Source: Sipunculus nudus (taxonomy: Eukaryota; Annelida; Sipuncula; Golfingiida; Sipunculidae). From it: 64,000 nt of DNA. Each line of letters begins with the position of its first letter. Position 1 is the first letter of the stretch. The stretch is taken from contig CM049314.1 of NCBI GenBank assembly GCA_026874595.1, positions 34,110,229-34,174,228 of the forward strand, read 5' to 3'. Position numbers and translations under genes: made by a program. Shown here piece after piece: positions 8,023 to 51,700 of the stretch. Under the pieces are notes generated by a model. That model did no database searches and had not been told where the DNA came from. It saw only the letters and a program-made list of their open reading frames with translations.

Positions 8023-8023
<1 letters not shown>

Positions 8024-8573: not shown

Positions 8574-8574
8574 A

Positions 8575-12083: not shown

Positions 12084-12319
12084 TTAAGTTGAAAGCTTAT
12101 AAATATAAAATAGATATACATTCAATGAGAAAAATGCTAGATTGTACACTGCAACGAAAGGATTTCATTCTAAGCTACAAAGTCCTCCCCACTAACGGTG
12201 ACTAAACCCAATCTTCCTACCCCAATCCCAGGTTTGCACATTGGCTCATTTTAGATGCCAGCTAGTAACACTCTGCGACATATTAGCTCCCTCCAAACAA
12301 ATTCCTGGATCCGCGACTG
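11842..12319. mobile_element. hAT-like non-autonomous element, 478 bp
   Basis: Inverted ends CAGTGGTGGATCCAG (left) and CAGTCGCGGATCCAGG (reverse complement of right). Flanks CCCACTAA (11834-11841) and GCCATTAA (12320-12327) resemble an 8-bp target duplication with two changes. The left part is copied at 9101-9340. No transposase ORF. Confidence 0.5.
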
Positions 12320-13318: not shown

Positions 13319-13427
13319 ATGTCCACCCATGTAATCAGCCACCGTAAAGACCCGTTAGACCTTATAGAGAGACTCCTGAACAACACAACGCTGTCTACAA
13401 AACGTGTGACGCACAGAAATATTGTTG
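13319..13427 (+). CDS. Coiled-coil gene exon 1
   Basis: ATG at 13319 (AAGATGTCC), 36 codons plus one base, donor TTG|GTAAGT with the last exon base at 13427. It encodes MSTHVISHRKDPLDL through RVTHRNIV. The leftover G plus AT from 21306 gives Asp, continuing as DLGENVRG. An earlier in-frame ATG at 13250 exists but reads through GC-rich leader; 13319 is preferred because similarity to the family starts after it. Confidence 0.6.
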
Positions 13428-14737: not shown

Positions 14738-14808
<71 letters not shown>

Positions 14809-16122: not shown

Positions 16123-16174
<52 letters not shown>

Positions 16175-22100: not shown

Positions 22101-25100
22101 ATTTTTGTCTTCTTCTACCATTTTTGTGTTGGCTCGATCTCCAATATGACTTATTTTGAAAAGCTGAAATTTGGGCACAGTATTAGTTCTAGGTTACAAA
22201 TTTGCACCTGATATTTATTTGTGACTGTGACCTTATTCCCAAGGCTGAACATCCTTAACCAAATTCTCCATTATTGCCATTTAATCCCTTTTTGCACTAA
22301 AGATCTCCAACATCGGTGATTTTCAATAACTTCTCTTGAGGTTGCTCGGTGATTGCATATATTTGGTTTATACTATATGAGTGATGATGGGACCAATTCA
22401 TTGTTATACTGCTCCTCTGTTGAGACACTTCGGAAAAGCCCATTTTTTTTGTCTTGTATAGTCTGTTCCATGGGAGGGTGCCCTTTGAAATTTATCAATT
22501 ATTCTCTTAAACTCAAAACTTATCACAGAGTCTGAAATTAAAACTGATGAAGGAATAAAAGGCTTATTATTAGATGTAAACTTTATAATAAAATACCAAC
22601 ATTTATATTTTGCAATCCTCTGGTTCTTCTGAATCTTGTGGCCAAGTGTCATGGTGTCTGCCAATGGTTGCAGACAACTGCAATTTTTAGAATATTTATG
22701 ACCAATTATTAGCCAATCAGGAGCTGTCAAGTGCAGTTGTTTGAGCATGTCACCAGTGACCTTGACCTTTATGAATGGAGTAGAGGTGTTGTAAAAAAAT
22801 AGACTGTTTACTTAGATATTGATTTAGTTGCAGTACTTAAATGTTTTGCAAGATATGATTTTAATTTAAATATAGTTAATTAGGCCAATTCCCCATCCCT
22901 TCATTGCAGCATACTACCTGGATTTAATTTGCCAGTCAATGAAAATATCGCCAAATTTCAATGGGCACCCTACTGTGGAACAGACTTTAGTGCTGGGAAT
23001 TTGCTGTGTCCAATTCGAGTCATCTTCAATATTTTCCCCTTAATTCTCAAGAACTTTATTTTTTGGAGAAATTTTACAAAAGGTCTTATTTCAGCACCAT
23101 CTGTAAGAATTACACCACTCTGAAGCTATTACGCTGGTAAATGATTTAATACACTGTACCTGTTTGTTGGTGTTTTGAATGTGTGTGAAGGTTCAAGGTA
23201 GAAACTTACAGTATGTATTATATATCATACAGTTCTTTGAAGATCTGGCAAAGAGAGTCGCCCGTCAGAGAGACCTTGCTGAAGAAGAGAGGATCAGAGA
23301 GCTTAAAAGGTGGGAAATAAATGTAATATAGGTAAATTGATATGTATGTGCTTGACAAAAGTTAGATATAATACAGGATGAAAAGTTGTACAAAATTGTA
23401 AGAATGATACCATAGCACTTGATATACATTTAGTTAAAACAGAGAGTTAAATGTGTACATATCATGTAAAACAGACAGTTTGTGATGTACACTTTGTGTA
23501 TTACAACCAGTTTTGGATGTATATTTCATGTATTACAGACAGTTTGAGATATATGCTTTATTTATTACAGACAGTTAGAGATGTACACTTCATGTATTAC
23601 AGACAGTTTGAGATGTGTGCTTTATTTATTACAGACAGTTTGAGATGGCTAAAGATGATGCATTGAAGGAACAGTGGGAGGAATGTGAACGACTGAAGAT
23701 GATCGCCATAGAAGAGGCTTGTGCAGCACTGAGAAAGCAACTCCGCAATGACTTTATCCTTGAGAAGGAACAAGCAATCGCTAATGCCCTAGCAAAGGCT
23801 CGGGTAAGCAGTCATTCGAAGAAAACAATAATCAAAAACAAAATAAAAGATAATTTTTCTTCAACACATAATTATCCTACAAAACTTTGTTTGCCAAATG
23901 TGTTAAGTGCCATCCAGATCAGGGCTTGACATTAACTGTTAACCTCTTGCCTTGGGAAGGTAAAAGTTCCTGAAAATGGTGGAAGGGCAATCTAAAGTTG
24001 GCTCCTGCTTGCCTGACTGGGCAAATGGGTGCAACATGAACCTCTACACAGAGGCCTGAATCTTAACTAATCTTAAGTCAGCCATTTTTTTTTTTTTTAA
24101 GCAGAGGTTTATCTCATTTTAATATCAGAGGCATCATAATGTCTTAAATTACCTGCATGTTGTTCTGTGCGAATGCTCAAGAGAAATATTGTTAACAAGC
24201 AAACATTTGAAATTGTTTATATTTTTTTTAAAAAATCGTGTAGATATCATTTTTGTGGTAGTAGCCACGATCTCTGGTTATTGTGGGACAACTAAATATT
24301 TATGTGGGGCAGGTAAAAGCTAGTTTTCAGTTGCCTAACTGGGCAAGTACTTTCAAAAGTTAATGTTGAACCCTGCAAATTAGTTATAAAATTTACTACA
24401 AGAGGGCAGCAGAAGGCCTTCAGTCAGGCTCATACAAAAACATCAGGGATGAGGTAGTAAGACTGTACTAGGAGTGCCACCTGTCTGTTCATAGCTGAAC
24501 TAATGCTTGAATACTGATGGCTCTGTTTTACATTTTGCTTTGCAATGTGGCCATTAAACAATCTGGTGTGCCAATTTCAGGAATTGCTACCAGTATATTG
24601 TACAAAAGTTGCATTTTGGTTTAATGTTTAGTGGAAACTATTAACCATACCTCACTTATCTAGAAACTTGCTTACCTGTTATTGAAAACAGGAACTTCAA
24701 CTGCTCATCTGGCAGATATCACTTACTAAACAATGGTTAAATTTTAAGAAAAGCTGGTTGGGGGGGGGGGGGAATGAATATTCCATTTTCCTGTTACATG
24801 TTGTTTGCAATACAGTTTAGAAAGGTATCTTTGAGTAACAGAACCTTGCTATTTGTGATAACATGCATCATCAAACATTACTTGAATGGTAAACAGGAGC
24901 AGTTCAAGATTCGCGAAAAAGCAGCAATAGAGAGAACAAGACAGGAATGTCAGAAAGAGGCTGCTGAGGAGGCAGCAAGAGTTGCCAGGCAACATGCTGC
25001 AGAGCTGAAGAAGAAGCAACAAGAGTAAGTGAAGCCAAGTTTTAATTCCATATTGTGGTATTTTATCACAAGGTTCTGAATTTAAAGAGCCCCCCATTGC

Positions 25101-27766
25101 ATTGCACTGGCAACACAAATATAACCTCTTGTTTTGCACTCATGACACGTAAAAGGTCCATTGGGACATCATATCTACCTGACCTAATTGTATAAAAGTT
25201 GTAAACCGGCCGCGTAAGGCTGCCTTTCCATGAGCGCGACGCCTTTGCCACGCGACATACCACGCGACATGCCCCGTGTGTAATCGCGCCGCCAGAACGT
25301 TTCCATGAACGTGATTTTTTCTGCGATACAATGCAGTGGAGCTCTGTTGCTGCAGCCATGTTTCCCTGCAAAAATATCGCCTGGTGAAGGGTTCGCCTAG
25401 CGGGTCGTTGAACGCGTGTTGCAGAAATCACTACATGCGCGATTTTCGCCGCGCGACATTTTTGTCGCACAGGATGTCGCGCGGGAACCCGGGTCCATGG
25501 AAAGGCTATATGGTTAAAACACTAGAGCGATTCTGCCGCTGTCGCAACCCCATCGCAGACAAATCGCGTTAATGGAAAGGCAGCCTAATGCTGGGTCTGA
25601 AATGCCTGCTTTGACCTACAGGGAATGTTGTTGTTTTCCCCAAGCACATACTAACCAAGTTTGAAAATGATGAAATAGCTGTTCAAAATGGCAAAGTAAT
25701 GGTGAATACCAATAATCCTGTCTTACACCTAATTCCGTTTTAGCATACAAGTTTCAAAGTCATAACAACTATGTCAGATACATGGTTTTCTAGCTGAGTT
25801 AAATAAAATAAGACACCTTTGATAGGTATGTTTAATTCTCACTACAAATCGAGAATGATCCTTTAATGTTTTGCAGGAGGTAAATTTGAAACTGTCTAAG
25901 GGCTGTTGTTTGATCCATTGTTGACAACCCAAAATTAAGAAAAATGTGGTCATTTGGATACATATCAATGTAATTGTAACAAAATGAGCAATCAAACAGA
26001 TTCCTGTTTCTTTTTTTTGTTTAAACTGGAATATTCTTTTGATTGATGTGATTAGGATGATATGGAAGTTGGGCAAAATAAACCAAAGGGCCCATGAAAA
26101 AAAAATCAAGTTCAAGAAAGGCTTTCATTAAAGTTTGTATGGTGTTTTTGGTAGATGGGTTCACTGAAGGTTAGAATATTACAACCAATCTCAGAAAAAA
26201 AAATAAAATTCCATAGTTTATGATACAGTTTTTCACAGTAAAAGAAAGCCACATGTTTGAGTTGATTTATTGATTTCTTAGGGTTTTAAAGAGTATACTC
26301 GCTGGGAAACATCTCCATGTGTTACCTGAAAAAAGGGTATATTTCTGGCAACTGTCTGCATCAAATTCACTGGGGGTTTTCACAAGTGTATTCAAGGGTA
26401 TCCACAACATTTGCAAGTTTTTTTGGTTTTTTTTTTCCAAGTCATTTTAAGATTAATTCAGTCAAAACTAAATTAATATTAGACCCCATTATTCTTTTTT
26501 TTCATTTTACACCTGGTATGGTGCTTTTTTATTTTATTTTTGTTTAATTTTAGATAATGTTCCCATGATAGTTTAATAATATTAAAAAAAAATTTAAATA
26601 GATCATTATTCTAATAACCCAGTATGAGTTAGCTACTTTTTATTGAGCTCATGTTAACTTTATGACAGTTTATAGAAAACATTTATTCAGGTATTTTTGC
26701 TCAACCATGTTTCTTTCCTGCTTAAAATTTAAACTTTGTATAAATAAAAAATCCCATGTAGAAGTGTGTCACTGTCTGAAAACTAAACTGATTATCACTC
26801 TTTGTGATATTACAGTGATGAGTTATAATGTTATTCATGCAGGTACAGTTATCATAGCTAATTATTACAGGTATGATAATTACAGCTAATTGTTACAGGT
26901 ATGATAATTACAGTATATTATTACAGGTATGACATTCTCAACCAGAAATACCTCAAAGAAAAAGACCACAAGGAAAGAGTTGAACTTGATTTCAAGGTAC
27001 GTATAAAAGTATCTCTTAATGAATAGAGATATTTTGTAAGTTTGCAGTTTTGCAGTTGAACAAATTTAATTTTTAATTATAGAATAAGGTTTGATGTTTT
27101 CACTAGTTTATATCCCTGATGTATGTAGAAGGGAAATCTTTTACAAGTGCTTCTGTTTAAAAACAAATCTGCAAATTAATCCATGTTTAATCATAATTTT
27201 TTCAAATCAGTGTTTGCTGATTTCTCGGACAATTTTCTTTGATTGCTTTGTCTGAGAGCCTAATGTCCTGTATACAAGGCTAATAATATGATCATGTTCT
27301 TTATCAAGTGTAATAAGACATTCTTCAATCTTCTTGTTTTAAGAGTTACTCAATGGTAACAAATTGCCCATACTTGCAGTTCAGGTCTTTGTATGACTAA
27401 TGTCTTGTTTACAAGGCTAATAATATGATCATGTTCTTTATCAAGTGTAATAAGACATTCTTCAATCTTCTTGTTTTAAGAGTTACACAGTGGTAACAAA
27501 TTGCCCATACTTGCAGTTCAGGTCTCTGTATGACTACTGTCTTGTATACAAGGCTAATAAAGTTATCACATTTTGTATCCAGTGTATTGAGACATGCTTT
27601 GAACTTCTTGTTTTAGGAGTTACAAGACGATTACAGACGATTCATGGACTACACAGATGGCAGGTACCACTCTGACTACATGATGCGACTGCGTAATCAC
27701 GGCCTGAAAATCGCACAAAAGAAAGTCAGTGTGGTCACATATGAAGACATTGAGCGCCTAAAATGA
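13319..27766 (+). CDS. C6orf163-like coiled-coil protein, seven coding exons
   Basis: Coding exons 13319-13427, 21306-21487, 23233-23309, 23635-23803, 24897-25024, 26927-26996 and 27617-27766 join without a frame break (885 nt, 294 residues plus TGA). Every intron is GT-AG. After a short head (1-36) with VTHRNIV, the chain is dominated by Glu, Lys, Ala, Arg and Gln in heptad-like order (about 45-240), i.e. a long coiled coil. It ends with FMDYTDGRYHSDYM and a basic tail. From memory, the layout, the length and the motif TH-x-x-I-x-D-L/I-G resemble vertebrate C6orf163 (about 330 aa), a poorly studied protein. Function is unknown. An additional exon in the 7.9-kb first intron cannot be excluded, although exon 1 and exon 2 fit in phase. 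AATAAA signals lie at 27844, 27933 and 27948. Confidence 0.75.
13655..13725. repeat. Imperfect hairpin
   Basis: AGCTTGTCACCCCAAACGAC is nearly the reverse complement of the segment GACGATGGGGTGACAGTACA some 20 bases later. Part of it belongs to the inverted copy of the 5.1-5.35 kb segment. Confidence 0.5.
13660..13960 (-). pseudogene. Inverted, degenerate copy of the 5.1-5.35 kb segment
   Basis: Minus strand reads ATGGAGACGAG, then AACTGCTGCACGAATACAC followed by GTAAGTCAACCGTG, then CCAACAGAATAACGTCACTT, matching 5091-5350 on the plus strand. Its frame ends after SRSR at a TGA, while the 5-kb copy stays open. It is either a pseudogenised paralogue or an interspersed repeat. Confidence 0.4.
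14739..14805. repeat. (TA)n microsatellite
   Basis: Uninterrupted TA dinucleotides inside the foldback element. The minus-strand ORF with an (IY)n run is an artefact of this tract. Confidence 0.95.
15631..15656 (+). repeat. Poly-C run
   Basis: A run of about 25 C. Directly to its right starts a SINE-like piece (15665-15770). Confidence 0.9.
15665..15770 (-). mobile_element. SINE fragment, partner of 20895-21165
   Basis: GACCGTGAAAAATCTCATGG then CTCCTCGGCTGATACTCG matches, with changes, the end of the element at about 21110-21150 (GACGGTGAAAAACCTCACCG then CCTCGGCTGAGATTCG). Partial copy only. Confidence 0.45.
16127..16171. repeat. (TA)n microsatellite
   Basis: About 22 TA units, inside the foldback element. 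Confidence 0.95.
17140..17310 (-). mobile_element. tRNA-derived SINE copy
   Basis: On the minus strand TGGCGCATTGGTAGCGCACA looks like a polymerase III A box region and GGTTTGAGACC like a B box. A diverged copy with the same downstream sequence (ACCAGTTG..GTGGGGATATTT, then TTAAAATGAGGGTTAA) is at about 20065-20270. No intact cloverleaf, so not called a tRNA gene. Confidence 0.5.
18065..18200. repeat. AATTGGAATT-rich repeat, second block
   Basis: Same phrase set as 6660-6860 (TGAATTGGAATTGAAGG, GGAATTGATTTGGAATTGG). Confidence 0.6.
18690..18850 (-). repeat. Inverted repeat pair, left member
   Basis: The reverse complement (TTGGTCCGTTTGGACGACTC ... GAGCACCAGTACCAGG ... CTGGAGGTTTCC) matches 19380-19510 on the plus strand (GTCCCGTTTGGACAACTC ... 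GAGCACCAGTACCGGG). Diverged copies about 550 bp apart, in intron 1 of the coiled-coil gene. Confidence 0.65.
19380..19510 (+). repeat. Inverted repeat pair, right member
   Basis: Partner of 18690-18850. Both contain a short TA tract after GGTTTCC. Confidence 0.65.
20065..20270 (-). mobile_element. tRNA-derived SINE copy, diverged
   Basis: Second copy of the 17140-17310 element; the A-box region is more eroded. Confidence 0.45.
20895..21165 (-). mobile_element. GC-rich SINE-like element
   Basis: Minus strand begins GATCGTGGGTTCGAATCTCA (B-box-like) and the far end has GGGCGGTAGCACTCGC (A-box-like on the plus strand). It stands out as GC-rich against the intron, and lies about 140 bp before exon 2 of the coiled-coil gene. 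Confidence 0.5.
21306..21487 (+). CDS. Coiled-coil gene exon 2
   Basis: Acceptor TTTTACAG, donor AAATGG|GTGAGT; residues 37-97. Heptad-rich: EKSKAVQEALEAAEQRH, then KAALRRLKHEL, then DEQKKALERQKW. Confidence 0.85.
23233..23309 (+). CDS. Coiled-coil gene exon 3
   Basis: Acceptor ATCATACAG, donor AAAAG|GTGGGA (non-consensus +4); residues 98-122, FFEDLAKRVARQRDLAEE then ERIRELK. It leaves two bases (AG), completed by A at 23635 to Arg. Confidence 0.8.
23461..23646 (+). repeat. 32-bp tandem array containing the exon 4 acceptor
   Basis: Acceptor-like ACAG|ACAGTTTGAGAT recurs with AG ending at 23474, 23506 (mutated to AA), 23538, 23570, 23602 and the true site 23634, i.e. exactly every 32 bp. Each unit carries the 3' end of the intron and the first dozen bases of exon 4. 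Each intact upstream copy I read (23538, 23570, 23602) runs into a stop when read as exon start. Confidence 0.9.
23635..23803 (+). CDS. Coiled-coil gene exon 4
   Basis: Acceptor TTATTACAG, donor GCTCGG|GTAAGC; residues 123-179: QFEMAKDDALKEQWEECE, then ACAALRKQLRNDFILEKEQ, then ANALAKAR. The acceptor is the last of a 32-bp tandem array (see repeat 23461-23646). Confidence 0.85.
23920..24375 (+). mobile_element. MITE with CAGGGCTTGACATTAAC ends, copy 1
   Basis: 456 bp; left end CAGGGCTTGACATTAACTG, right end (reverse complement) CAGGGTTCAACATTAACTTT. Internally rich in TTGCC...GGGCAAG phrases. Other copies lie at 44144-44358 and 44358-44634. No ORF. Confidence 0.65.
24762..24773 (+). repeat. 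Poly-G run
   Basis: About 12 G, 120 bp before exon 5 of the coiled-coil gene. Confidence 0.8.
24897..25024 (+). CDS. Coiled-coil gene exon 5
   Basis: Acceptor GGTAAACAG, donor CAAGA|GTAAGT; residues 180-221: EQFKIREKAAIERTRQECQ, then KEAAEEAARVARQHAAEL, then KKKQQ. Leaves GA, completed by G at 26927. Confidence 0.85.
25215..25587. mobile_element. GC-rich MITE in intron 5 of the coiled-coil gene
   Basis: 373 bp with inverted ends TAAGGCTGCCTTTCCATGAG and TAGGCTGCCTTTCCATTAAC (reverse complement of right end), TA at both flanks. CpG-rich interior (CGCGACAT, GTCGCGCGGG) unlike its surroundings. The 134-aa ORF across it is not a gene. Confidence 0.7.
26829..26938 (+). repeat. 28-bp tandem array containing the exon 6 acceptor
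   Basis: AG ends fall at 26842, 26870, 26898 and the true 26926, exactly 28 bp apart. The unit is TTACAGGTATGATAATTACA-like; the first copy is degenerate (GCAGGTACAGTTATCATA). Use of any upstream copy gives an early stop (for example EYDNYS then stop). Confidence 0.9.
26927..26996 (+). CDS. Coiled-coil gene exon 6
   Basis: Acceptor TTATTACAG, donor TTCAAG|GTACGT; residues 222-245, EYDILNQKYLKEKDHKER then VELDFK. Its acceptor is the last of a 28-bp tandem array. Confidence 0.85.
27250..27619 (+). repeat. 137-bp tandem array containing the exon 7 acceptor
   Basis: CTTCTTGTTTTA-AGAGTTAC occurs with its G at 27336, 27473 and, at the true acceptor, 27610: twice 137 bp. Copies two and three are nearly full length (27346-27482, 27483-27619); the first is partial. 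The upstream copies read TTTTAAGAG where the true site reads TTTTAGGAG. Confidence 0.9.
27617..27766 (+). CDS. Coiled-coil gene exon 7 (last)
   Basis: Acceptor CTTGTTTTAG; residues 246-294 then TGA at 27764-27766. It encodes ELQDDYRRFMDYTDGRYH, then SDYMMRLRNHGLKIAQKK, ending in YEDIERLK. The non-coiled, aromatic centre is the part most reminiscent of the C6orf163 C-terminus. Confidence 0.85.
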   Translation, partial: ELQDDYRRFMDYTDGRYHSDYMMRLRNHGLKIAQKKVSVVTYEDIERLK

Positions 27767-29234
27767 TCTGATAAATTCCTGAAGCTGTGCCCTGATTAAA
27801 AAAAATTAAATACAGTATTCCACAAAATACAGTCATCTGTCCTAATAAAGGCAGCTCACAATCCAACTAGAACTGAAGCTTTGGCAGTAAATTATTGATA
27901 TCTTTAAATCTTACATCTAGAGCTACATGTTGAATAAATTCTCACAGAATAAAGAAATAATAATTCCTGGTTTAACAGGAAACTTTCATACCCTAGAGTA
28001 TGCGGAATGTTTTAAAACTTATTAGTATTCAAAAACTTTTGAACGTATGAACATTAATAATGGTAATGCCCTCTTAATAAGCAACACAAATCCCCTATGA
28101 ATTGTCAGAACCTTTTAATTGACTTTCTTGATTGTCAGCTGACAGACTTAACCTTGCTGCTGGACCTTATATGAAGGTACAGTCATGCAAAATGGATGGA
28201 TACAAATCGTTAATTCAAGAGGGGTATTTTTTTTATATATATTCAGCTCTCCTGTTGATACCCTTTCACATGACAAATGCAAAACATTTAATATAAGTCT
28301 CCAGTAACAGTTTAACATTCACAAAACAAAATTAATCAGTCTGGATAAACCCAAATTCTATTCTGCATCACGTTTGATTGCCTTGCAGTGTACACCAGTA
28401 TGTACACCAAAGGGTATAGACAGAAGTGTGGACCAGTATATAGATACATATTAAATTTAATAATTGTCAAATATTGTTATCAATTTTCTGTCCATTACTG
28501 AAACATCATTAAAGTATTACTAATCGAGTCATACCAAACTTTATAATTTATATTACTTTTTAATAACCTTTGAGAACAGTCTTCTTGGACTGTTTCCTAT
28601 ATCTTATAGATCCTGCAGTGAGTATTATTTTTATTTTTAATCAATGTGTTTTAACTTTAAATGGCCAGCTTATTAATATGCCATAGACATATCCTTATAA
28701 AAATTCTTTGCCCAAACATTTAAAGCTGAGTGATTATTTCAGATGGTACTCGCATGTGATTGTAATAATCCAGTATTCACAATCGCAAAACCTCAAGGGC
28801 CCAAAGCCAATAAAAAAAAAGATGTTTTTAGTGATGAAGAATGAAGAAGCATATTTCTAATTGTAAATCAGTCAGCCTTTCTTAGTGCCAAATTTATTGG
28901 TTGTGTTACTGTGCTTCATATTTATATATTTATATATCATATCAAATGTTGAGTATTATTATATAAAATGAATTAATGTATCAGTATTTGTATCTGGCCA
29001 TAACTATGATAGATCCCTCGAGTCAGCTTGTACAGAACATATTTTCAGAGTCTTTGCTGTCCAATTCACAATGTACCAATACCCAGTATTTATTCAGAAT
29101 ATATTGTATTTACTCCTATAAGTATTAGTATTTACTGTATATATTAAAGTATTTAAACACTTGTTTCTGTTAAGCACATACTTGTCAGATTGTTAATAAG
29201 TCACATATTATCAATATAAAATTGAGAACTTCAG
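27767..29234. other. 3' UTR and intergenic sequence
   Basis: The 3' UTR of the coiled-coil gene probably ends after AATAAA at 27844-27849 or at 27933/27948. Beyond that, no ORF, RNA gene or repeat that I recognise. Confidence 0.45.
27844..27849 (+). terminator. Candidate polyadenylation signal of the coiled-coil gene
   Basis: AATAAA 77 bases after the TGA; further AATAAA at 27933 and 27948. Confidence 0.45.
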
Positions 29235-29400
29235 TACAGTGAAACCTGTGTCATGGGACCACCCATGGGACTAGCCAGAAGTGGTCTTAATTCACAGGTG
29301 GTCTTATTGGATAGGTCAGTTGTAGCCAATGTGAATGCTTTCGGCTCACCCAAGGGTGATCTTAATAGGCAGGTGGTCTTATAAGACAGGTTCCACTGTA
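29235..29400. mobile_element. TACAGT-ended MITE, copy 1
   Basis: 166 bp, ends TACAGTGAAACCTGTGTC and TACAGTGGAACCTGTCTTAT (reverse complement). Interior carries GGTGGTCTTA repeats. Related copies at 57253-57423 and 60254-60433, a looser relative at 45422-45615. Ends of this type fit pogo/Tigger-like elements (inference). Confidence 0.65.
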
Positions 29401-30524
29401 TAAGATTAAAAGGCCAAACATTATCAAGACCAGTTTAAGAAACGTTACTGTGATATTACAGAGGTTGGCATGAACACTTACCATTACCAGTTATTACTTT
29501 AAGCTGTATTATAAACTGTATCCTTATTGATAGGCTATGTTTACATAATCAGAATTATAATTTTAACCTGAACAGCCTTCTGCCATATACATATATGCCT
29601 CCTTTAAGCAAGTGGTCAGATATGCATATCACTTTAAGGGGAAATTAATCTATACTCATTATCTAACTTTATGAAGGTGCTTATAAATTTGTCATGATTG
29701 TTAGTGACTTTGGTGTGTTTAGCATATCAGTATTAGATTTTAAACATAAATAGAGAGATTATATTTTACATGTCAATTATTATAACAAGAAATTATAGCG
29801 TCATATAGTACCAAGAAGATACACAGGATGTGTGGTAGAGTTGTGATGGGCAGTAGCTGTAAATTTTTATGAGCAGTTAATCAAACTAGATGTTTGTGTT
29901 GTAATGGCTCTGTGAAAAATGGAGGGCTAATATTAGAGACTTATACTGTGGTTGCCATTTTGTTTGCAAGAGTTTCAAATTCATGATATTTGCGACAGGG
30001 AAATTAGTGCAAAAAAAAAACCCTTTTGATTAAGATTATCCATCATCAAAGGGAAATTGTAGAGCAAAACATTGATATATAAGATATGATAGATCTTGCA
30101 TGTAACTCTGAACCAGTGACTGTTATAATAAATGATCAAATCTTTCAAATAATCTGTCGATAATGAACAAGAATTTCCCCTTGTTCAATGCTGCCTTGAG
30201 TCTTCGTCCAATTTTTACGATTTGTGTAAAGATTATTTAATACAACTAAATCAGAATAAGATTTATATGAAGTATATTGTGTAGTTTACAATATGGACAA
30301 ATTGCGAAAATATAATCCTCGCGAAACAATGATAATATGAAAATCGCAAAATTTGAAACCCCACGAATATGAAGCTAACCACAGTATTGGGCCTGTACCT
30401 CATCAGGTAGAATGGAAATTGTACGTACACCATCGCATGGATGTACATCAATGAGAAGAGTACATAAGAAAGAAAACTAAAATGCAGAATTGGGTTCAAC
30501 TGCAGATGCACATGAATTTTGATA
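29401..30524. other. Intergenic, nothing recognised
   Basis: AT-rich, no supported gene. Confidence 0.4.
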
Positions 30525-30994
30525 TTAAAGGGGCCCATTCTGATATCTGGTGTTTATTAAATAAAGATAATCCCTTGAATCTTTTATAGAAATACGCCTG
30601 AAAACGATGATCCAACCTCACAACTGTAGGCTGTTCATTTTGTTTATATCCACATAGTTATGTGTGTGGGGGGGGGGGGGGGGGCAGCCAAAATACTAGT
30701 AATCCACTCATATTCAACAAAGACATCTGGTGGCAAGTCAAATGAACCATTTTGCGAGTAGTGATCTTTCAACTTCTGCACATATGCAGCCAACCACCTT
30801 AGGTAGTGGTTTTTCTGTTTGTAAACATTGGTGCATGCACCGTGTTTACAAACAGCTTATAGATAAACAAGCTCATCCATCCGTCACAGAGGCGTTATGA
30901 GACTTTACCTTGACAGGAATTACTTGCAGCTCAATATTATGTACACAGAGTAAGCCATAAATCCTTTATATTCTACAGGAATCGCTGGCTTTAA
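30525..30994 (-). mobile_element. TTAA-flanked MITE, copy 2 (inverted)
   Basis: 470 bp between TTAA sites, starting TTAAAGGGGCCCATTC. Aligns in reverse to 10733-11199 (shared TTTTGTTTATATC, GTTTGTAAACATTG, GTTTACAAAC, ATAAACAAG). The most diverged of the three copies, with an 18-base G run inside. Confidence 0.65.
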
Positions 30995-32163
30995 AATGTT
31001 GAGTTGTATTCAAATGCACAGTTATTGGTAAACCTGCAAAATGCTGTTTCAAAATGCTGTCTCAGATTATAGTAACCAAAAAAGCACTTTAAGAAACATG
31101 TAACATTTTAAAATAATATATTCAGCCATGATGGGTTTAGCAGCTCCTACTCTCATAAAATAATAGTTCCTATAGCTCTTCCACTTTGTTTCTGCTTCAT
31201 CAACCTATTATGACATTAAGACTATCTTTCAATTTATCGTAGCCATGTATTTGTCTCCAGTAAAACGGGGACGGGTTACCAGTTAGGCCAGTCCAGACCA
31301 CCCTCTTGCCAGTATTGTCACAGTTGTTTAAACAAGGCTGACCTGATGCCAGCTTAGCGCCTGGGTAGCAGAGGCCCGTGTGCTGGTGGATAGGCCAATG
31401 TTGGTTCGATATAAATAATGTCTTAATATCATAATAGGTGTATGAAGCAGGAACTAAGTGGAAGCATAATGACCGATTATTTAATATAAGTAGGCAGCTT
31501 CTTGTTCTTCACTACTTTATATACAAATACCTCATCAAAATACAATTAAAGTGCAAATGCATTTGGTAATTTTTATCAAATTTGCTTTTGTATTTTAAAT
31601 GAGCTGACTTGCATTTGAACCCAACCCCACTATAGATCAAAGTGGTGCCACTGTATGGATTCATAACAAATTTATGAATGGTCTTTCAGTATATCAGGTT
31701 TTGCCCATATTGCATAAAATAACATGAAAATATTATGCACTCAGTCATCCTAGTGTGGATACTTACCTAAAAAATTGTCATCTTAGTGAAGTCTTCTTTG
31801 GGGATATCCGCAATCATCTGACACTGCAGGAAGTGTTGTTAACATATTTTTGTCCTTTTACTTTAATGGCCAGAAAAAAAATTGAATGAAAATACCTGTT
31901 CATTTCAACAGGTATCTGTAATACCTGATTAGACACTTGATAAGAAGGTGATTTGTTGGTGCTAGAACATGTCAGTCAGTTATCATCATGTTCCCCCTGT
32001 ACTTAGGAGGTTAAGTCATATATTTTGTAGTTATTTGTTTTGTAGGAATTTTAACATTGTAATTAAACAAATATTGTGATGTGCTTTAATATGAAAGTAT
32101 TTTAACATTTCTTTATTTCTTATACCTTTTTACATGTTAATATCAATATTTTTGTAATATCTC

Positions 32164-32166
<3 letters not shown>
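30995..32166. other. Intergenic, nothing recognised
   Basis: AT-rich, no supported gene or repeat. Confidence 0.4.
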
Positions 32167-32217
<51 letters not shown>

Positions 32218-32218
32218 T
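32167..32218. repeat. (TA)n(CA)n microsatellite
   Basis: About 20 TA units followed by a short AC run. Confidence 0.95.
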
Positions 32219-32779
32219 AAACATCCTGAAACAGAATGTGCTGTACAGTTTAAAGTGATATGTCAGTTACAGATTCACTAATATTTGAAGGTTAGCAGTA
32301 AATTTCCAGACTTTTTGCAGGTCATAATGTAACAGCTTATGTATGCATATAAGTAAATGTTCGTTGAAATAGAAGTAGACAGTTATATGCTTATCTGGCT
32401 TTGCAGATCAGAAACTGAAATATTGTACCTTTCTACTCCATGAAGTTGATGGATCTCAGTGTTTGATCTCTCTTTGATAAGAAATCAAAGATATTTGTTA
32501 ACTACCCTGATCCTTATGTAGGTGTACAGTTGTTTCATTGAATAAAATTGTCATCGCAGAAAAAATGTGTATCTGAATTTGTGTATAATATTGAGTGTGT
32601 CAGTTATGAGTGAGCTAACAATACTGTTATAAGTTAAATTGGATTTATTATTGGTTTCACTATCCAATCTCATTCTCAATTTATAAAGTCTTTGGTTATT
32701 CATTAAAACCCTGTGTATATGATTTTACTCTAATTCAAGGTCTCTTGTTACATAATCGATTGGGTGTTGGTTGTTTTAG

Positions 32780-34760
32780 ACAATACTGTCTTCCATGCCT
32801 CCTGAACAGCTTACATTAGGAGTCTCACATGCCTATTGCTCAATATTTACCAGGAGCCCTATGTGCCTCCTTTACAACATCCATCAGGTGTTCCATACGC
32901 ATCCTGTACAATATCCACCAGGTGTTCAACATGCCTCCTGTACAACATCTATCAGGTATTCCACATGCCTCCTGTACACAACCCATAAGGAGTCCCACAT
33001 GACTCATGCACAACATCCATCAGGTGTTCCACATGCCTCCTGTACACAACCCATAAGGTGTTCCACATGCCTCAAATTCATCATCCATCAGAAGTTCCAC
33101 ATGCCTCCTATACATCATCCATTAGGTTTTCAACATGCCTTCTGTACAACATCCATCAGGTTATCCACATGCCTCCTGTACAACACCCAAAAGGAGTCTA
33201 CCATGACTCATGCACAACATCCATCAGGTATTCCACATGCCTCCTGTACACAACCCATAAGGAATCCCACATGACTCATGCACAACATCCATCAGGTGTT
33301 CCACATGCCTCCTGTACACAACCCATAAGGTGTTCCACATACCTCAAATTCATCATCCATCATAAGTTCCACACGCCTCCTATACATCATCCATTAGGTT
33401 TTCAACATGCCTTCTGTACAACATCCATCAGGTTATCCACATGCCTCCTGTACAACACCCAAAAGGAGTCTACCATGACTCATGCACAACATCCATCAGG
33501 TATTCCACATGCCTCCTGTACACAACCCATAAGGAATCCCACATGACTCATGCACAACATCCATCAGGTGTCCCACATGCCTCCTGTACACAACCCATAA
33601 GGTGTTCCACATACCTCAAATTCATCATCCATCAGAAGTTCCACACGCCTCCTATACATCATCCATTAGGTTTTCAACATGCCTTCTGTACAACATCCAT
33701 CAGGTTATCCACATGCCTCCTGTACAACACCCAAAGGAGTCCCACATGCCTCCTGTACAACATCCATCAGGTATTCCACATGCCTCCTGTACACAACCCA
33801 TAAGGAATCCCACATGACTCATGCACAACATCCATAAGGTGTTCCACATGCCTCCTGTACACAACCCATAAGGTGTTCCTCATACCTCAAATTCATCATC
33901 CATCTGAAGTTCCACACGCCTCCTATGCATCATCCATTAGGTTTTCAACATGCCTTCTGTACAACATCCATCAGGTGTTCAACATGCCTCCTGTACAACA
34001 TCCATCAGGTATTCCACATGCCTCCTGTACAACACCCAAAAGGAGTCTACCATGACTCATGCACAACATCCATGATGAGTTTCACATGCCTCCTGTACAA
34101 CATCCATCAGGTGTTTCACATGCCTCAAATTCATTATCCATCTGATGTTCCACATGCCTGCTATTTAACACCCACCAGGTGTTCCACATGCCTCCTGTAC
34201 AACATCCATCAGGAGTTCCACATGCCTCCTGTACGACATCTACTAGGTGTTCCACATGCCTCCTGTACAAAATCCATCAGGAGTTCTACATGGCTTCTGT
34301 ACAACATCTACCAGGTGTTCCACATGCCTCCTGTACAACATCTACCAGGTGTACCACATGCCTCCTGTACAGCACCCATCAGGTGTTCCACATGCCTATT
34401 GTACAACAACCATCAGGTGTTCCACATGCCTATTGTACAACATCCATCAGATGTTCCACATGCCTCCTATACAGCATACATCAGGAGTCCTACATGCCTC
34501 TTGCACAACATACACCAGGAGTCCCACGTCTTCGGTACAATAACCATCAGGTTTTCTACATTCCTCCTTTACAACATTCATCAGGAGTTCCATGTCTCTT
34601 TTTCCACATCTATCAGGTGTACAACATGCCTTCTTTACAACATCAATAAGGAGTCACACATGCCAATTGCTCAATAGTTACCCTATGTGTCTCCTGTACA
34701 ACATACAATAGGAGACCCACATGCCTCTAGTACAACACACAATAGGAGTTACACATATAT
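32780..34760 (+). repeat. 34-bp minisatellite with 272-bp higher-order repeat
   Basis: Unit TGTTCCACATGCCTCCTGTA + CAACATCCATCAGG, measured as exactly 34 bp (for example TGTT at 34384, 34418, 34452). Variant CCTCAAATTCATCATCC recurs at 33070, 33342, 33614 and 33885, i.e. 272, 272 and 271 bp = eight units. The array is free of stops in long stretches of several frames (up to 250 codons), giving a repeated HASCTT/CLLYNIHQ-like product, but this follows from the unit lacking stops. No spacers, so not CRISPR. Confidence 0.95.
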
Positions 34761-41664: not shown

Positions 41665-41688
41665 TCAACTCAGGGACCCAGAGGGGTT
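41665..41688 (-). CDS. Kdm6a: Kdm6a exon 24 (last codons and stop)
   Basis: Acceptor TGTTTCAG, then NPSGSLS and TGA (41667-41665). Very short, chosen for phase, a good acceptor and the similar short Ser-rich end of UTX; an alternative end by intron retention is possible. Confidence 0.7.
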   Translation of the reverse strand, partial: NPSGSLS

Positions 41689-44600
41689 CTGAAACAGAAA
41701 CCAGGATATTAACTCAATGTGATATTTTTAAGCCGAATACTCCTCTAAGGCAGTACCAGAAACAAAGATTTTAAAAATTTATTTATAAAAACTGTGTTTA
41801 TTTTACACAGATTGCAGAAAAAGTAAAAATAACTAAGGCATTTTCCTTGCCTAAATTGGTAGTTTGGGTTTTCTGTACAAGTGGACAGCACTACAGAACA
41901 CAGTCGAAGCTATCAATCTTTGATGGGCCACTACAACCTACTCTCATACCCATGCCAAGAATCAAACCTGGGTTGCCAGCAGAGAGAATTGAGCATTTGT
42001 CTACTTGGCTCATTTGTCTACTAGGCTCTGATATATATCACTAGACTGACACATTATGAATCATTTCAGTGTAGGTATAATTCCCCTTGATTTCTAATTT
42101 TCATGCAATTTTTTACAATTTGACATTGATCAAGAGGAGTATCAGACAAGTGTAAATTCTTACATTTTTAATTTCATTTTATTTATTTTTTTTTGCCTTT
42201 CAAAGTTTGACCCTAGATGCATTTTATGACTCACTTGGGAGTCATCAAACCTACTATGTAAATGACTGTTCAACAGTGTTTAATGTACAACTTTAATTTC
42301 TGCAATTATTTCCTCTTCTCTTATATCACAAATATATTTTAATTCCTGATGATTATCAAGCTAACCACAGTATCATGTACTGTGAAATGTGTGTCCATAC
42401 GTTGCCAGGTACTTACAAGGACAGCAAGCTGGAAAGAGTCAAATATTTGGCTGAGTTCCTCCATTTTATACTGGTTCAAGACAACAAATCCTTCTAACGT
42501 TGAGCTCATCTTGCGGGCACAGTCGTAACAGTGGACCAAATGTTTTTTATCTTGTTCAGTAACAAACAAGATGTTGAACACTTCAACCTGCAAATCACAA
42601 AAGGTACACATGCAGGGCAATATAACAAATTATAAAAGAGAGACAAAAAATGCATCATGTTCATGTAAGAGTCCATCAATCCAGTCATTTCCTACATTGA
42701 GCTTTTTTATATATAAAACACATTGGGTCATGGCACTTTGCATATTGACATAACCTACGCATATCATCATTTTATAATATAATCAAAGAACTTTAAATCT
42801 AAGAAAACGCAAACAAAAACCAGGTGGTTAATATGCCTCCTTTTTGCATCCGTGCCCCTGTTTTTTCTGCTAATACTTCCCTCACAAAAGAAAATTATAA
42901 ATTCACCAATAAATTAAATTAATAACAATAATATCCTTAAAAATTCCACCAGACAGTTCAGGATTTTCAAACTTTGATTTTTACAAGATTTGGGTCCTAT
43001 TTGTACCAATTTAGGAAGGGGGCCAAGCACCCGAAAGCTGGTGTATAACAAACTTCACACAGCTAGTCTTTAAAAAGGTGTCAACAATTTACATAACTTT
43101 CTTGTACCAAGAAATACAAATTTATCCCTAGCAGAAATACCTATTTACCTCGCACGTGTTGCAGTAGTGGGCAGCTTCGTTCTCTGACCGTCCGTGCCAT
43201 TTTATTTCTTTATTGACACTCTTCACAAAGTCCATCAACATCTGGCACATGTTGATTGTCTTCATCAGGACAGTTCTGTAAGAACAAGATCTTTACTATA
43301 GAGTCAGGTTAGTTTCATATTCACAAGGTTAATATTTGCAATTAATGATACTCATGTATATATTCATAATTATTTGACAAGGGGAACGTCTAATGAGAGG
43401 AAAACGTTTCGTACATTACTGGTGGATAAAATAAAAGGTCTGATTTTATCTACAAGTCTTTGATTTATATGTAACAGAAAAATCTGTAAAGTACCAGTTT
43501 TTGAAGTGCAGTGCTTTGGGAAGGGAGAACTTAAACAAGCAAATTCATAGAATTTATGTCCCCCACTTCTGCCTCTTCATGTCCACTGTTTTAGTTTTTA
43601 TGTTCCCCTGAAGATGTCTTCACATGTCATAGTGCCTGTGTTTTAGTTTTCATTGTCCTTTTCATTGTCTCCACATGTCATAATTTGTTGTGAATTGGGA
43701 ACAAAAGGGACATTTTTGTTTAGTTTCGGAGCTGGTCATATTAAATTTTCAGACAGACATTCCAAAACCAATCCCAACCAAGGTATGCATGAGAGCAATC
43801 ACTGACCCAAATTTGAATGAAATCGGATAGTCTATAGGAAAGTTACTGCACAGAAATGAAAATTTGACAGACGGACAGACAGAGGGACAGACAAACCCAA
43901 ATCAATGTCCCCCATTCTGAAGAAGCAGGGACAAAAATCTGTGAAGAACCAGTCTTTGGCCTGCAGTGCTGTGGAAAGGAATAACTAAAATAAGATGTCG
44001 GTTCATGAGGCCGTACATTATGAATGTTCACCTTGGTTGGGCGTCTTATTCATGCAGGTTTTATTTTCGTGAAAATTTCCTACTTTGCGCACATTGCAAA
44101 TTTAAAACCCTTTTTAACAAGAAAACCATCCACAGTATTAATGCAGGGCTTGACATAACTCTTGAAAGTACTTGCCCCACATGAATTTTCATTAGCCCAA
44201 CCAAAAATCAGTGACTGCAGCCACAAAAACAAACTGTGCTTCAGATGAAAGCTGCATGTATTTTATTGCATGCTAGTCACTGTACATGTTTACATGTTTG
44301 TTTACAATACTTCTGATAAGTCACTGTACAGATAAGTGTGTAGGTAATGTCAAGTTACAGGGCTCAATATAAACTTTTGAAAGAACTTGCCCAGTCTGGC
44401 AAGTAACATCTAGCTTTTACTTGCCCTTCATGAATTTTTTACTTGCCTTACAAATATCAAATATGTTATTTAAGAACACGAAGATCCTTTTCAAGCCTTT
44501 ACTTGGATAAAAGTTTATGCTGGACCCACTTGCTGAGCCGGGCAAGTAGGAGACGACTTCTAGTTGCCCTTCCATTATTTTCTGGAACCTTTACTTGCCC

Positions 44601-45253
44601 TGGGCAAGCAGTTAACCGTTAATGTCGAGCCCTGGATAAGGAGCACTTTTATATCAGTTTATGTATGATGACTGCTGACAAAGTATATTCTTACACTCCT
44701 ACGCTGACTCATCTGCACAATGCTGCATCACTGATGTTTCAAATAAATGTGTAGAGAGGACCCTGCACTTACTTTATCAGTCCGTAGAGCTTGGCGTCTG
44801 TAACTTTGATGTTGCGTGCCAGGTTCCAGGAGAGGTGCATCATGGGAACTATAGACTTGTACAGATGAAGTTTGTTGTACTCGTACCGTTCCTGGGCAAG
44901 CTGGTATTGTTTCCACGTCAATGGACCGACATTCCACGCAATATTATTGCACCAACCCTGTTTACAACAAAAATAAGACAACTGATGTTGAAATGTGTAT
45001 GTTTAAAACATATTTATTTCATACTGGATTGCCAAGTACAACATTTTGATTAATTAAGTTTATGACATTAAGAGCACTGGTTTTGTTAACACAACTGGAT
45101 AAACGTTTAAAATAGTAACATCATTGCTGAAATATGTTTTCAAAAACACTACCTCTTAGGATTTTACACAAATTTGTAACAACCAATTTGTTTCAATTTC
45201 TGTTTCAACTGTAAGCACTCAACCTAGGTTTTTATTTTAATTTATTTGAAGTC

Positions 45254-45319
<66 letters not shown>

Positions 45320-45628
45320 TTATAGTCCTATATATCAGTACATCTGAGGCTCTCATTCAATTTTATATACAACCAATTCACAGTTTTCCATTGCATGCAC
45401 TTAGCCAAGGATTTACATATATACAGTGAAATCTCGATGTGTCTAAATTGAAGGGACCCACAGAAAACTTCGACACATCCCAGGTTTGACACAAGCCAGT
45501 TTTATTTGGTAATTATATAACTAGAGTTGTCCGGAATATCGAATCTGTAACTTCCACATAAGCATGGTATTGGTATTCGACTTAAGTGAGTTCGACACGA
45601 CGAGGTTTCACTTTATTATATTTATTTA

Positions 45629-45706
<78 letters not shown>

Positions 45707-48700
45707 TAGATATATATAAAACACACTTACAATGGCCTGGACCCAGTGGACTGTCCCCGAGTTAACCCAGACCAGGTCCCCTGGCTTCTGTATAAACCTG
45801 TACACCGGCACATCAAAATCAAACAGATCCTCCAACATTGGCCACCACGATCCTGTCAGGTAGTTGATATTGTTCCTGTGAGAAAAGGTACATTTTATAT
45901 ACAACCACTTGTGTTATGTGCAGTAACAATGTCATACAAAATTATGTTGATCTGCTTGGCCACAGGGGTATCTTCAGTTTAGTTTGGACTAAGCTAAGTA
46001 GATGGCAGCAGACAATGTATATGCAATAACACAATGTTTTACAAAATATTGCGGTTTCACAACAGCTCAGGGTTGGTTTGAGTTTAGTTTGGACTACACC
46101 CAGTAGATGGCAGCATCTGCTGAATGAGCAATACTTTAACTGTATAGATAAAGATGTAGCATAATTATGAACATGTTAGAATCACAGAGTTTCAAACTGA
46201 AGACTGTTAATTAAGGTCCCTACAAGCTACAATATGCAATAAAATTAATATCTATGGGAGTGTTGTAAATAACAATACGTAAGAAAATCAGTCAAGGCTA
46301 AAAATACAAATGTTACAATTATGATGTCATAATGGTGACCTGAGTCTATTTTACAGCTGTAATAAAGCTGTGCATTTTTTTTCACAAATGATTAGCATAT
46401 TTAGCTACTCAATCTAAATGAAGGAGCTAGCTGCAAAGCTAGCTATAACTGTGTTCAACTAATAAAAACATGTTTAAACTATATAATTTTTTACAGAGAA
46501 GCTAACTTTTAAATGATACATTGAAACAGCTTACTTTTCACAGAGCTGATGGATAGAGCCCCAGTACGACTCTGGCACAGCAAACCACTCACAGTCCCCT
46601 GGGCCAATGTTGATGTTCACCGAGCAGAAGTTATTGTTCTCTTGGTGACCTGGAAGCAAACGAAGAGTAAAATATAAACCGTGGTGTATCAATAATGATG
46701 CAGGTTATTACTATATCATTATATGATGTAAGGTCAGAGTAATCGAACAATATATCTGTCATACAAGAAGTTAGAATGCCCATCATTTTTGCAAAATATC
46801 TTCTATATCTCAACAAATGTGCTGGTGGTGTAATGGTTAGTGCACTGGACTTGTGACCCCAAGGTCAATAATTAAAATTTCCATAATACCGACCAGGCAA
46901 ATCAACTCTTTACATCTTAACTGTTCAATTGACCATTCTATCAAATCAAAATTTGACCTTACCTGGTGTCCTTGACCCTGGGACCTTCATGTAAAGCTGT
47001 ACAGAGTTCATGCCTAATATGGTGTGACCAACATGACTCAGCATATTACTGGCTGCTACCACCTGCAAATAAGGGTCAAAGGTCATGTAAGGCAAAATCA
47101 AGATAAATTATATTGTTTTTGTTCATAACATCAGCTACAAATATACATAAATGTGTTCATCTGAATGAGTGTTAATTATGCAAGACGTCAAGTTAACAAT
47201 GGTTAAATATGTTTTTATTTAATTTAGTCAGTTTATCCAACCAACGAATTATACCTAATATTGCTTTTAGTCTCATTGGTAAAATTGTATTCATAGCTAA
47301 GAAAGGTATGAGCAAGCTGGTTGGCACACAAAAACAATGTATGACTGTATTGTATATAACATCTAGGGAGTAGTTCCTCAACTTCACTGCATTACATACA
47401 CCATTCCATCCTGCATAAATATGTGATCAATATATGATGAATAAAAGCAACTAGAAAGACATGATAATATGATACAAGCTTTGGTAAAAGAGAAGTCCTA
47501 CTAACCAAACAATGCATCATTCAATCATTATTTACGATCCTCACAGCAGTTATACCCTGCGGTCATCCCAGATCATCCCTGATTACACCAGGACACATGT
47601 TTCAAATTTGGAGCTGGATGCACAATGTGATACCATGTTTTTATTGGTCTGATTACAATTCTTCGCTCTTTGTGAACCCTGGTGTTCTTATTTATAAATC
47701 TTGTTATACAGTGGTTACGCAAAAAGAGACCAGGGATGTATAACCGCTGCATGAGGAGCGTAACAAGATTTTGGACACACACAACATTAAAGCTACCCAT
47801 TCACCTACATTTTGAAAAAGAATTTATGTGATTTATGGCTTCCTCTGTGTATATATTAATAAAGTAAGGGTAATTCTGGTTGTAAAAAATGTTTGTATCG
47901 CCTCTGTGAAGGATGTATGAACTTGTTCATCAACGTGTTTGTAAACACAGCAATGTTTACAAATGGGAGAAACATGTAACCTAAGGTGGTAGGTTGCATA
48001 CATGCGGAGGTAGAAAGGTTACTTGTTACAAAAAGCCATTTGCAAAGCTCTGCCTTATCAGACTTCCCACCAGATGCCCTTGTTGAATTTGTTTTGATTA
48101 TACAGGCAGGCCCCCTGAATATTACAAACATGTTGATATAAACAAAACAAGCAGCCTGTGTGCAGTGATATCCATGTTTTCTGACCTATCTGTATAAAAG
48201 CTCCGAGGGATTACCTTTAGTTTATACAGACCAAGCAGGTGATAAGGCCCCTTTAATGACAGCTGAAGAGACTCACCCTTGTGAAGGCCGGTAGCTTTGT
48301 AAGCTCCTGTAGCTGAGGTCTCCACTTCTGTTCATCAGACAGGTCCACATTTGTACCAAACTTTATCTGCTTTTTCTTCTTAACCCTAAACAGTTATCAT
48401 ATTTTTTATCAAATGTGTGAATATATGTGAGAATTTTGTCTTGGCTAAGTTCAAGAACACACTTTAGTAACTTTAAGCAATAAATCACTGTACATTAATA
48501 AATGATAAATTAAACATTCTGATGTTAAGTCCTTGAATCACTGCACTGACCTAAGCCTGAAACATGACACTTGGGTTCCTATCCCATGTTAACATCCATA
48601 TATGATACTTATATTACTAATAAAATATATGTCACAGCTCTCTGGTGACAGAGAGTTATTTATCTTTTTCAAGAGCAATAAACATACACTTAAATTAATT

Positions 48701-51700
48701 AAAATGCTCTACTTAGTCCCTTAAGACCGATATAATTTTAATTCTTTATAAAAATTTAAAGGAACTTCTTTACCCAATACTCCAAAACCATAAGACTGGA
48801 TTCACAAAATGTCTTGCTTTGTTTAAATGAAGACATCATCAACTGATGGATTTAAAATTGTCTGGAATCCCACTGTAATCTGTGGATGCAGGTGTGGTCA
48901 TGCCAAAAGTGTTTCTCCAGCTTCTACTCATTCAAAACAGAGAGCTGTCAACTCACCCTTTGATTCCTGAGGAGTTGGAGTCACTGTCAGATTCTTTCTC
49001 CTTAAAAATTCCTTTGGCTTTTTCGTGTTCCTCCTGAAATTGATCAGTTACATTACAATCATTACTTTATATCAGTTAAAATCAGTGATATAACAAGTAC
49101 TCTAATCAGTGTTACCTGAAGTTATCACCACTAAACATTAATTGTAGCACATTTTTATCAAGTTACATTTCATATTGGTTATTCATGCCTGAAGCATGGA
49201 GATAAAAGGATAAAGATTAGTATTATAAACATATCTTTAATGTTACCCACAAATAAAACTTTCAGAGACTGATATGATAACAATATCAGACCATTGACAT
49301 ATCATCTACCAGCTATGAGCAGGAATTATATAAAGCCATGTTGTTATTTACATATCTGTACTGTAGAGTGAATTGCTGATAACTGAACCCTTGCAAATTA
49401 TCTGACAGCAAAAAAGTAACCTCATCAACCACAGTATTTTAAACCTTTTTAAGCTGAACATTATTATTCTCACTGCTTAATTCAACATTGATGGGTTATA
49501 TCTAAACACTGACCCGTAATGACTCTTGGAAGGAGGAAGCCTGATACTGAGCGTATTTTGCGACCGTTGTGTGAGACCGGCTACTCTCACATCGCCAGAT
49601 ACGGTTGCCAAATATATCACGGTTTTCATCTGGGGCTTGTTGGCGCTGTGTCCTCACTTCCACTGGATGATCAGCGTTAGCCTCAACAAGAGATTTCGTT
49701 GAAAATAAACCAAGATCTGTAACAAAACACAATACAACACTGCATGGATATAACTGTTACTATATTAGCATGAGCATTGCACTTGCTTTTACTTCAAAGG
49801 ACACTTTTAAAACAAGATTGTATTTCTCATATATCCATCTAAAAGAATTCACTTGTTTTTTCAGACTTTTCACCAGCTTGTGATTGGTCTTCAAGGATAA
49901 TTAAACAAATAAAAAAACTGAAAAAAAACCTATTAAATCTGCATGCAAACAAGGACCTGACTGTATGGACAATGAACGAAAGTACAGACTGACTGAATAC
50001 AGTAAACAATGCCAAACCCTTTCAAAATGCTAATCAGCTATGGTTGCCATAGCTATCTCCAATTTTCCTCAACTTGACCACTGGCTACCCTACTTTTGCA
50101 CACAGATATTAGTGAGCTTGACCTGTGTAGTCCTACATTGGAATCAAGCACACTGTTCAATGGCCATCATTCAGACTTTTAAGAATAAACAGATATAGAC
50201 CTTGGACATAACAAATCCACTTACCTAGTTTTAGGGCACCTGCCAACCCTCGTATAACAGCTACAGGTTGTGATAGGCAATACTGTCTCAGCTCCTCTGA
50301 GAAAGCATCTTTTTTGGACTCCAGCTGTAAAGAGTGCACACAAAGTTTTATTACCCAGGCATAATTGCCTGTTACAAAATTCAAGACCTTAATGTAGTTT
50401 ATATAAAAAAAAATTCAGTTTATAGCCATCTTGTTCTACAAATTTCACAATTACCAATGAAAACTACACTGTATTTTATCATTTAAATTCAGTTTGATTT
50501 TGCCTTGTATTACTATTCGGAGTAATTGTGTCAACTCAACACACTAAATTTCAGATTACACATGGGACCTGTGGGCTGAGCTTGTGGTTTGGCTTTGCTG
50601 AAAACAAGCACTGGGGGCAGATGAAGGGTATGTTCCTTGAATTCCAAACTTTGCATGATTCAGTACTTACATATACACTAGGAGTATTGGGGTTGAGTTT
50701 ATCAGTACTTACATATACACTAGGAGTAGGGGGGGGGGGGGGTTGAGTATATCAGTACTTACATATACACTAGGAGTAGGGGGGTTGAGTTTGTCCTTTG
50801 GCAGTGTTGGGTAGGGGCACTCCGGGGGAGCTGGAGGAGGGCACTGGTCTGATAAAATACTGTTGTGTATTCTCCCCTTCACACCTACAAACAACAATAA
50901 ACATTTATAACATTATAATTATAAACTGTTCTCAGAGAATAATTATATACCTCTATTAATATAACAGATCAACATTAAGGGCAAAACCCACAGAGGCCGA
51001 CACACATCTCAACACAGGGTGACAAGGACCAAAAAACATAAGGTGACTCAAACCGACACTTGGTTATGTCCTGACAGCCTAAGTAGCAAACCAATTGACC
51101 GACACACTCGCGCCACACATGGGATTCACACCATGGAGATTGCTGTGTATTCACGAAAAGTTGTGTCAGTTTGCGTCACCCAGCGTTTGGTGTATACAGC
51201 GTGTCACACGTCCAACTCCACTGCACAATCCTTGTCGAGTTGTGTCGGGAACAAGCTGACGCACGTAGACATGGGCTTCCATCGCATGACAAATCGAACA
51301 TGCTCAATCCTGTCGCATTGCCCAGGATGCAAATGACGTGTCATGAGACCTGGTCCACTGCCACAACACAAGAGGACATCTCTACTAGAGCCCTGCGCGT
51401 GTCAGAAATTTCAGCCCGCACCCGCCCCGCAAAAAATGTATGGAAACCGCAGCTGCCCCGCTCCGCACCTTTAGATTTAAAATTGACCCGCACCTGCCCC
51501 GCATATCAAAATATTAACCCGCAACTGCCCCACCTGCACCTATATATTAACTAGACATTTCTTGGCACCGCTGGTGCCTTAGTATCCCCAGACAATTAAT
51601 CCCTTTAATAATTTAAGAATAGGCCCCCCATCTTCAGCAACAATTAATATCAGACCACACTCATAGAAAAGGTCACTCTCATAGAAAAGGTCATGACCCC

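Follow-up and report, generated by a model that had tools for sequence, protein, structure and literature searches.

Tandem repeats that copy exon-intron borders in two genes of Sipunculus nudus, and their likeness to amphioxus mirages

Why should four splice sites in two genes lie inside tandem repeats whose units contain the splice site together with a piece of the neighboring exon? The question is raised by a stretch of 64,000 nucleotides from the sipunculan Sipunculus nudus (GenBank assembly GCA_026874595.1, contig CM049314.1, positions 34,110,229 to 34,174,228 of the forward strand; hereafter the window), in which a KDM6A/UTX-like gene and a second gene, here called gene 1, carry such arrays. 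The original prediction, made from the letters of the DNA, held that the pattern exceeds chance, that it creates decoy splice sites, and that it reflects either a lineage-specific process or ascertainment of one already known. We consider it probable that these are ordinary tandem duplications that fell over exon-intron borders and survived since the exon-side copy still splices, and in this window the pattern is a well-documented local instance only.

All four arrays were recovered by Tandem Repeats Finder (TRF) and cross modelled junctions, one at a donor of the UTX-like gene and three at acceptors of gene 1, so the repeats themselves are real. On the plus strand, array 1 (23454..23647; 32-bp unit, 6.1 copies) crosses the acceptor at 23635 of intron 23310-23634, array 2 (26840..26932; 28-bp unit, about 3 copies) crosses the acceptor at 26927 of intron 25025-26926, and array 3 (27260..27624; 137-bp unit, 2.7 copies) crosses the acceptor at 27617 of intron 26997-27616. 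Array 4 (50660..50792), on the minus strand, crosses the UTX donor after 50763, of intron 50325-50762, and can be read as 3.0 copies of 42 bp or 1.9 copies of 50 bp, the difference between the two units sitting in a C run of the minus strand. Every array reaches 6-30 bases into the exon, and it is the copy nearest the exon that holds the authentic site; the longest contiguous exonic match within a copy is 13, 6, 8 and 22 bases for arrays 1-4. As predicted, the units are unrelated to one another, and we found no copies of the four units elsewhere in the 64-kb window beyond 10-12-base chance matches. Dispersed copies of the kind expected of introner-like elements, whose related sequences recur in many introns, were thus not seen in the 64-kb window searched. 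When the 58 splice sites of both gene models were scanned for a nearby copy of the 24 junction bases, the four array sites ranked at the top with 19-23 of 24 bases matching; the next two sites matched at 17 of 24, a level reached by 12.6% of intronic controls.

The copied splice sites have diverged to varying degrees. In array 1 the acceptor is copied at 23475, 23507 (where the AG is lost), 23539, 23571 and 23603, and in array 2 at 26843 (a weak copy with 46% flank identity), 26871 and 26899. Array 3 has AA in place of AG at both copied positions, and array 4 has decoy donors after 50713 and 50671. Over 90 bp, the middle copy of array 3 shares 97.8% identity with the outer copy on the intron side, and its identity with the exon-side copy, measured over 134 bp, is 86.6%, the pattern expected when an edge copy escapes homogenisation. 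This divergence bears on whether the assembly inflated the copy number or generated the arrays altogether. A near-identical 1.3-kb duplication elsewhere in the window could itself be false, and in the available part of a study of amphioxus PGBD5, repeat number differed between two sequence versions (PMC3902484). At 11 of the 12 copied positions, however, the flanks are 0.46-0.93 identical to those of the authentic copy, and at one the identity is 1.0; because the copies mostly differ, in a way that assembly errors would not create, we regard an artefact as the least probable account of the arrays.

The argument depends on where the authentic junctions lie. Gene 1 (13319..27766, plus strand) was modelled with seven exons, at 13319-13427, 21306-21487, 23233-23309, 23635-23803, 24897-25024, 26927-26996 and 27617-27766, which give an open spliced frame of 294 residues from ATG to stop, with GT-AG at all junctions and the frame open across 6 of 6 introns. 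By eye the product is charged and coiled-coil-like. A Pfam scan of 258 of its 294 residues (exon 1 omitted) returned only sub-cut-off matches and no family above cut-off, and an assignment to C6orf163 was unsupported (blastp E = 0.13 against the human protein). The UTX-like gene (42417..62221, minus strand) was modelled with 23 exons and 1196 residues, without the 5' and 3' ends of the gene, and its spliced frame is open across all 22 internal introns. Most of its exons were found using the human UTX protein. Those at 55.6 and 54.8 kb and most of those at 54.4-53.4 kb belong to a weakly conserved part of the gene; their placement relied on open frame and splice scores instead of homology, and the splice matrices behind exon placement at 55.7-53.4 kb were built from approximate frequencies. 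Independent support for the model comes from the open frame and from PDB chains: the catalytic part matches KDM6A, UTY and KDM6B, the best match being KDM6A (E 3.8e-115). TPR families were identified by Pfam in the N-terminal part. Together the two models comprise 28 complete introns and 58 splice sites, 56 of them internal, and because they are open across all introns the authentic junctions appear well supported. The UTX-like model also includes a 35-nt microexon at 60500-60534, required for keeping the frame, and a tandem NAGNAG-type acceptor at 55639-55642, with two in-frame acceptors 3 bases apart (scored with the approximate matrices).

Are the arrays younger than the introns that carry them? 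The UTX intron with array 4 follows the residues PSVY. The corresponding human KDM6A residue is presumably Y944, at nucleotide 2832 and the end of PTPSIY, in the 1401-residue numbering. The human variant c.2832+1G>C is reported as a splicing alteration in the available part of the source (PMC7257184), which places a human donor at the same codon border; the UTX intron is therefore likely to be old, and array 4 appears to be secondary to it. Gain of this intron by tandem duplication was rejected on the same ground. The shared position also counts against the idea that the arrays mark places where introns arose through tandemly duplicated exon sequence, under the Rogers model or a border-duplication variant. 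Several features would suit that idea: the array 2 units contain AG|GT with a donor-like GTATGA, arrays 1 and 3 make up 56% and 58% of their introns, and a potato RdRp intron did arise by border duplication, according to the part of that report available (PMC4974935). Yet the four introns concerned consist of non-array sequence for 42-95% of their length, and we judge intron creation highly improbable as the source of these arrays.

How strong are the copied sites? We scored them with matrices built from the 54 array-free sites in the window, 26 acceptors (median 7.4, 5-95% range 1.9-11.7) and 28 donors (median 8.4, range 5.7-12.1). On this scale the authentic sites come out at 7.4, 8.3, 9.2 and 7.8 for arrays 1-4. 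Decoys of array 1 score as high as 8.4 and 7.6, those of array 2 as high as 9.9, and the two decoy donors of array 4 score identically to the authentic donor. In array 3 the AGs adjoining the copied AA positions score at most 4.6 and other AGs in the array up to 6.4. The original expectation of decoy splice sites was borne out, with 8 of 12 copied positions scoring inside the 5-95% range of array-free sites; the copies in array 3, reading AA, are not exact decoys. AG or GT is kept at 9 of 12 copied positions, compared with 7.7 expected from flank identity, and we therefore see neither purging nor maintenance of the decoys; their retention is near-neutral, about as neutrality predicts.

The products of decoy use bear on whether the decoys are functional. 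Arrays 1-3 contain 39 upstream AGs (13, 7 and 19), none of which leads to a product that stays in frame and free of stops, and in array 4 either decoy donor shifts the frame to an early stop. Decoy messages, if used, should thus be targets of decay. Regulated alternative or "poison" splicing, tuning levels of UTX and gene 1 through nonsense-mediated decay, would fit these products and the normal strength of most copied sites, but most inserted lengths shift the frame by default anyway, and the copied sites are retained at about the neutral rate. A regulatory role of this kind seems very unlikely. In the available part of a study of a human reporter library, the first of two consensus donors was predominantly used and tandem acceptors showed no order preference (PMC6783452). 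Based on these results, we predict that the array 4 decoys are silent, the authentic donor being the first of three equal-scoring donors and expected to win, and that arrays 1 and 2 leak, with some frame-shifted, decay-prone messages expected from the acceptor arrays; these are predictions and not results.

Do arrays fall on splice sites more often than chance would place them there? We counted arrays with a TRF score of at least 50 and a period of at least 10 and set aside those covered for the most part by a repeat of period 6 or shorter, such as 18075-18181 in the first intron of gene 1. This left 15 non-microsatellite arrays in the window, 8 within the two gene spans and 7 outside, and 4 of the 8 straddle a junction. 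The outcome depends on the null model, and all P values are nominal, the window having been picked for showing the pattern. When whole arrays were placed randomly in the gene spans, 2.0 straddling arrays were expected (P for 4 or more = 0.10); limiting exon overlap to at most 60 bases reduced this to 0.9 (P = 0.009), and to at most 30 bases to 0.4 (P = 0.0004). Placement of single units, which resembles the onset of duplication more closely than whole-array placement, gave 0.63-0.72 expected (P = 0.0008-0.0024, the value of 0.0024 coming from a variant with nine weaker arrays added and their periods copied by hand). Per-gene and overhang-limited variants gave 0.65-0.78 expected (P = 0.0007-0.0017).

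Enrichment was absent at the level of positions, where local copies are as frequent for intronic positions as for splice sites: a local copy (at least 19 of 24 bases) was present at 4 of 58 splice sites versus 402 of 5259 intronic controls (one-sided Fisher P 0.66). The controls were what remained of 6000 drawn positions after exon-touching ones were removed, and they include microsatellites and a 1-kb array at 51656-52656 built of 326-bp units. When this array is set aside, counted arrays cover 3.5% of intronic bases, which would put about 2 of the 56 internal splice sites in one. The claim of more than chance thus holds nominally under unit placement and under whole-array placement with limited exon overlap but not under the loosest null or in the comparison of positions, and enrichment is suggestive but unproven because the P values are uncorrected for the choice of window.

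These counts frame the case for a mutational process that favours duplication of exon-intron borders in this lineage, for example through transcription- or R-loop-associated breaks, with a true enrichment across the genome. The straddling of junctions by half of the gene-span arrays, the low unit-level P values and the presence of three arrays in one gene would all fit such a process; the post hoc choice of the window, the result for unconstrained whole arrays and the lack of a position-level excess speak against it. A lineage-specific process aimed at splice sites, as originally proposed, is possible, but the array-level excess amounts to four arrays in a window chosen for the pattern, and we hold such a process to be unlikely.

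We favor instead an origin in ordinary border-spanning duplication. The process would start with a local tandem duplication whose unit by chance spans an exon-intron border, and further slippage or unequal exchange would enlarge the array. One full border would stay beside the intact exon, so that the original message remains possible; with that border in place, duplication there should be borne about as well as one confined to the intron. The additional splice sites would then be by-products under neutral drift. This reading is supported by the four unrelated units, the lack of further copies in the window, the position of the authentic site in the exon-most copy, the near-neutral retention of AG and GT, the distinct edge copy of array 3 and the age of the UTX intron. 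Three points weigh against it. A blind process would be expected to leave about 0.6-0.8 straddling arrays in the two genes together, and four were observed; three of these are in a single gene, at 3 of the 6 introns of gene 1; and border duplication is not always harmless, since in human ATP11A the duplication of 8 bp at a donor shifted both the junction and the frame (PMC9035003).

The remainder of the window, which has a GC content of about 36%, contains other repeats. A tandem duplication of 1.3 kb (8023-9341 / 9340-12084) is 100% identical over 551 bp and 99.6% over 767 bp, and only its second copy contains a further stretch of about 1.43 kb (9891-11318); it could represent a recent duplication plus an insertion, or a faulty join of two haplotypes. 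At 32864-34664, about 53 copies of a 34-bp unit form a minisatellite with a higher-order period of 272 bp (8 x 34). The 326-bp unit at 51656-52656 is repeated three times within a 2.5-kb UTX intron and touches no splice site. Neither RNA families at gathering threshold nor tRNAs were found in the window.

The arrays place three to six similar splice-site copies beside one coding exon, providing natural loci for a test of splice-site choice, and tandem border duplication has been proposed as a route toward new introns and alternative exons. It is a doubtful but conceivable prospect that S. nudus represents a non-cephalochordate animal lineage with a raised rate of border-spanning minisatellite growth. 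If true, many genes would have strong, frame-breaking decoy acceptors beside the real ones, and the choice of the spliceosome among near-identical sites could be followed as a natural experiment. Should enrichment be shown outside amphioxus, the border repeats known there as mirages would become a general way in which gene structures evolve and no longer a peculiarity of lancelets.

How do the arrays compare with known systems? The available parts of studies on amphioxus huntingtin (PMC2206037), gastropod hemocyanin introns (PMC7931591) and Drosophila intron gain (PMC2809761) contain nothing relevant to border repeats. Among the systems of intron gain by duplication, which also include the Rogers model and ATP2A1, the potato RdRp case is the nearest in kind: like that duplication (PMC4974935, from the part available), the arrays described here span an intron-exon border and copy splice signals. 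Unlike it, they consist of many copies, the authentic site lying at the edge toward the exon, and we infer no new intron here, the UTX intron being old. As in human ATP11A, an exon end and donor are duplicated, but there a single duplication of 8 bp makes the exon that much longer and puts it out of frame, whereas here the units are at least 28 bp and the exon-adjacent site yields a conserved protein. The closest counterparts are in amphioxus, where lancelet PGBD5 has repeats of 60 and 108 bp at splice sites (PMC3902484, in the portion available) and where mirages, in which minisatellite-like repeats duplicate an exon-intron border at a donor or an acceptor, are described in the accessible part of PMC3087553. 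That source reports them in Adh3 and the globins BflGb6 and BflGb9, and cites troponin C. Units are 10-72 bp in Adh3 and 150-160 bp in the globins, many copies but not all carry AG or GT, the authors' data for Adh3 and the globins suggest that regular splicing is undisturbed, and a role in intron gain is proposed. The S. nudus arrays differ in lying in different genes and in being known from one DNA sequence alone. They share with mirages a tandem repeat that runs over the exon-intron border and whose unit includes exon bases (4 of 4 arrays), AG or GT in many but not all copies (9 of 12 positions), and a gene-specific unit length (28-137 bp here); the distinct exon-side copy of array 3 recalls the distinct edge copy of an amphioxus globin mirage (PMC3087553, same part). 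Ascertainment of a known process is thus the part of the original prediction that fits best: by their structural features the four arrays appear to be the same kind of structure as that already described in amphioxus, and the simplest account of them is neutral, border-spanning tandem duplication.

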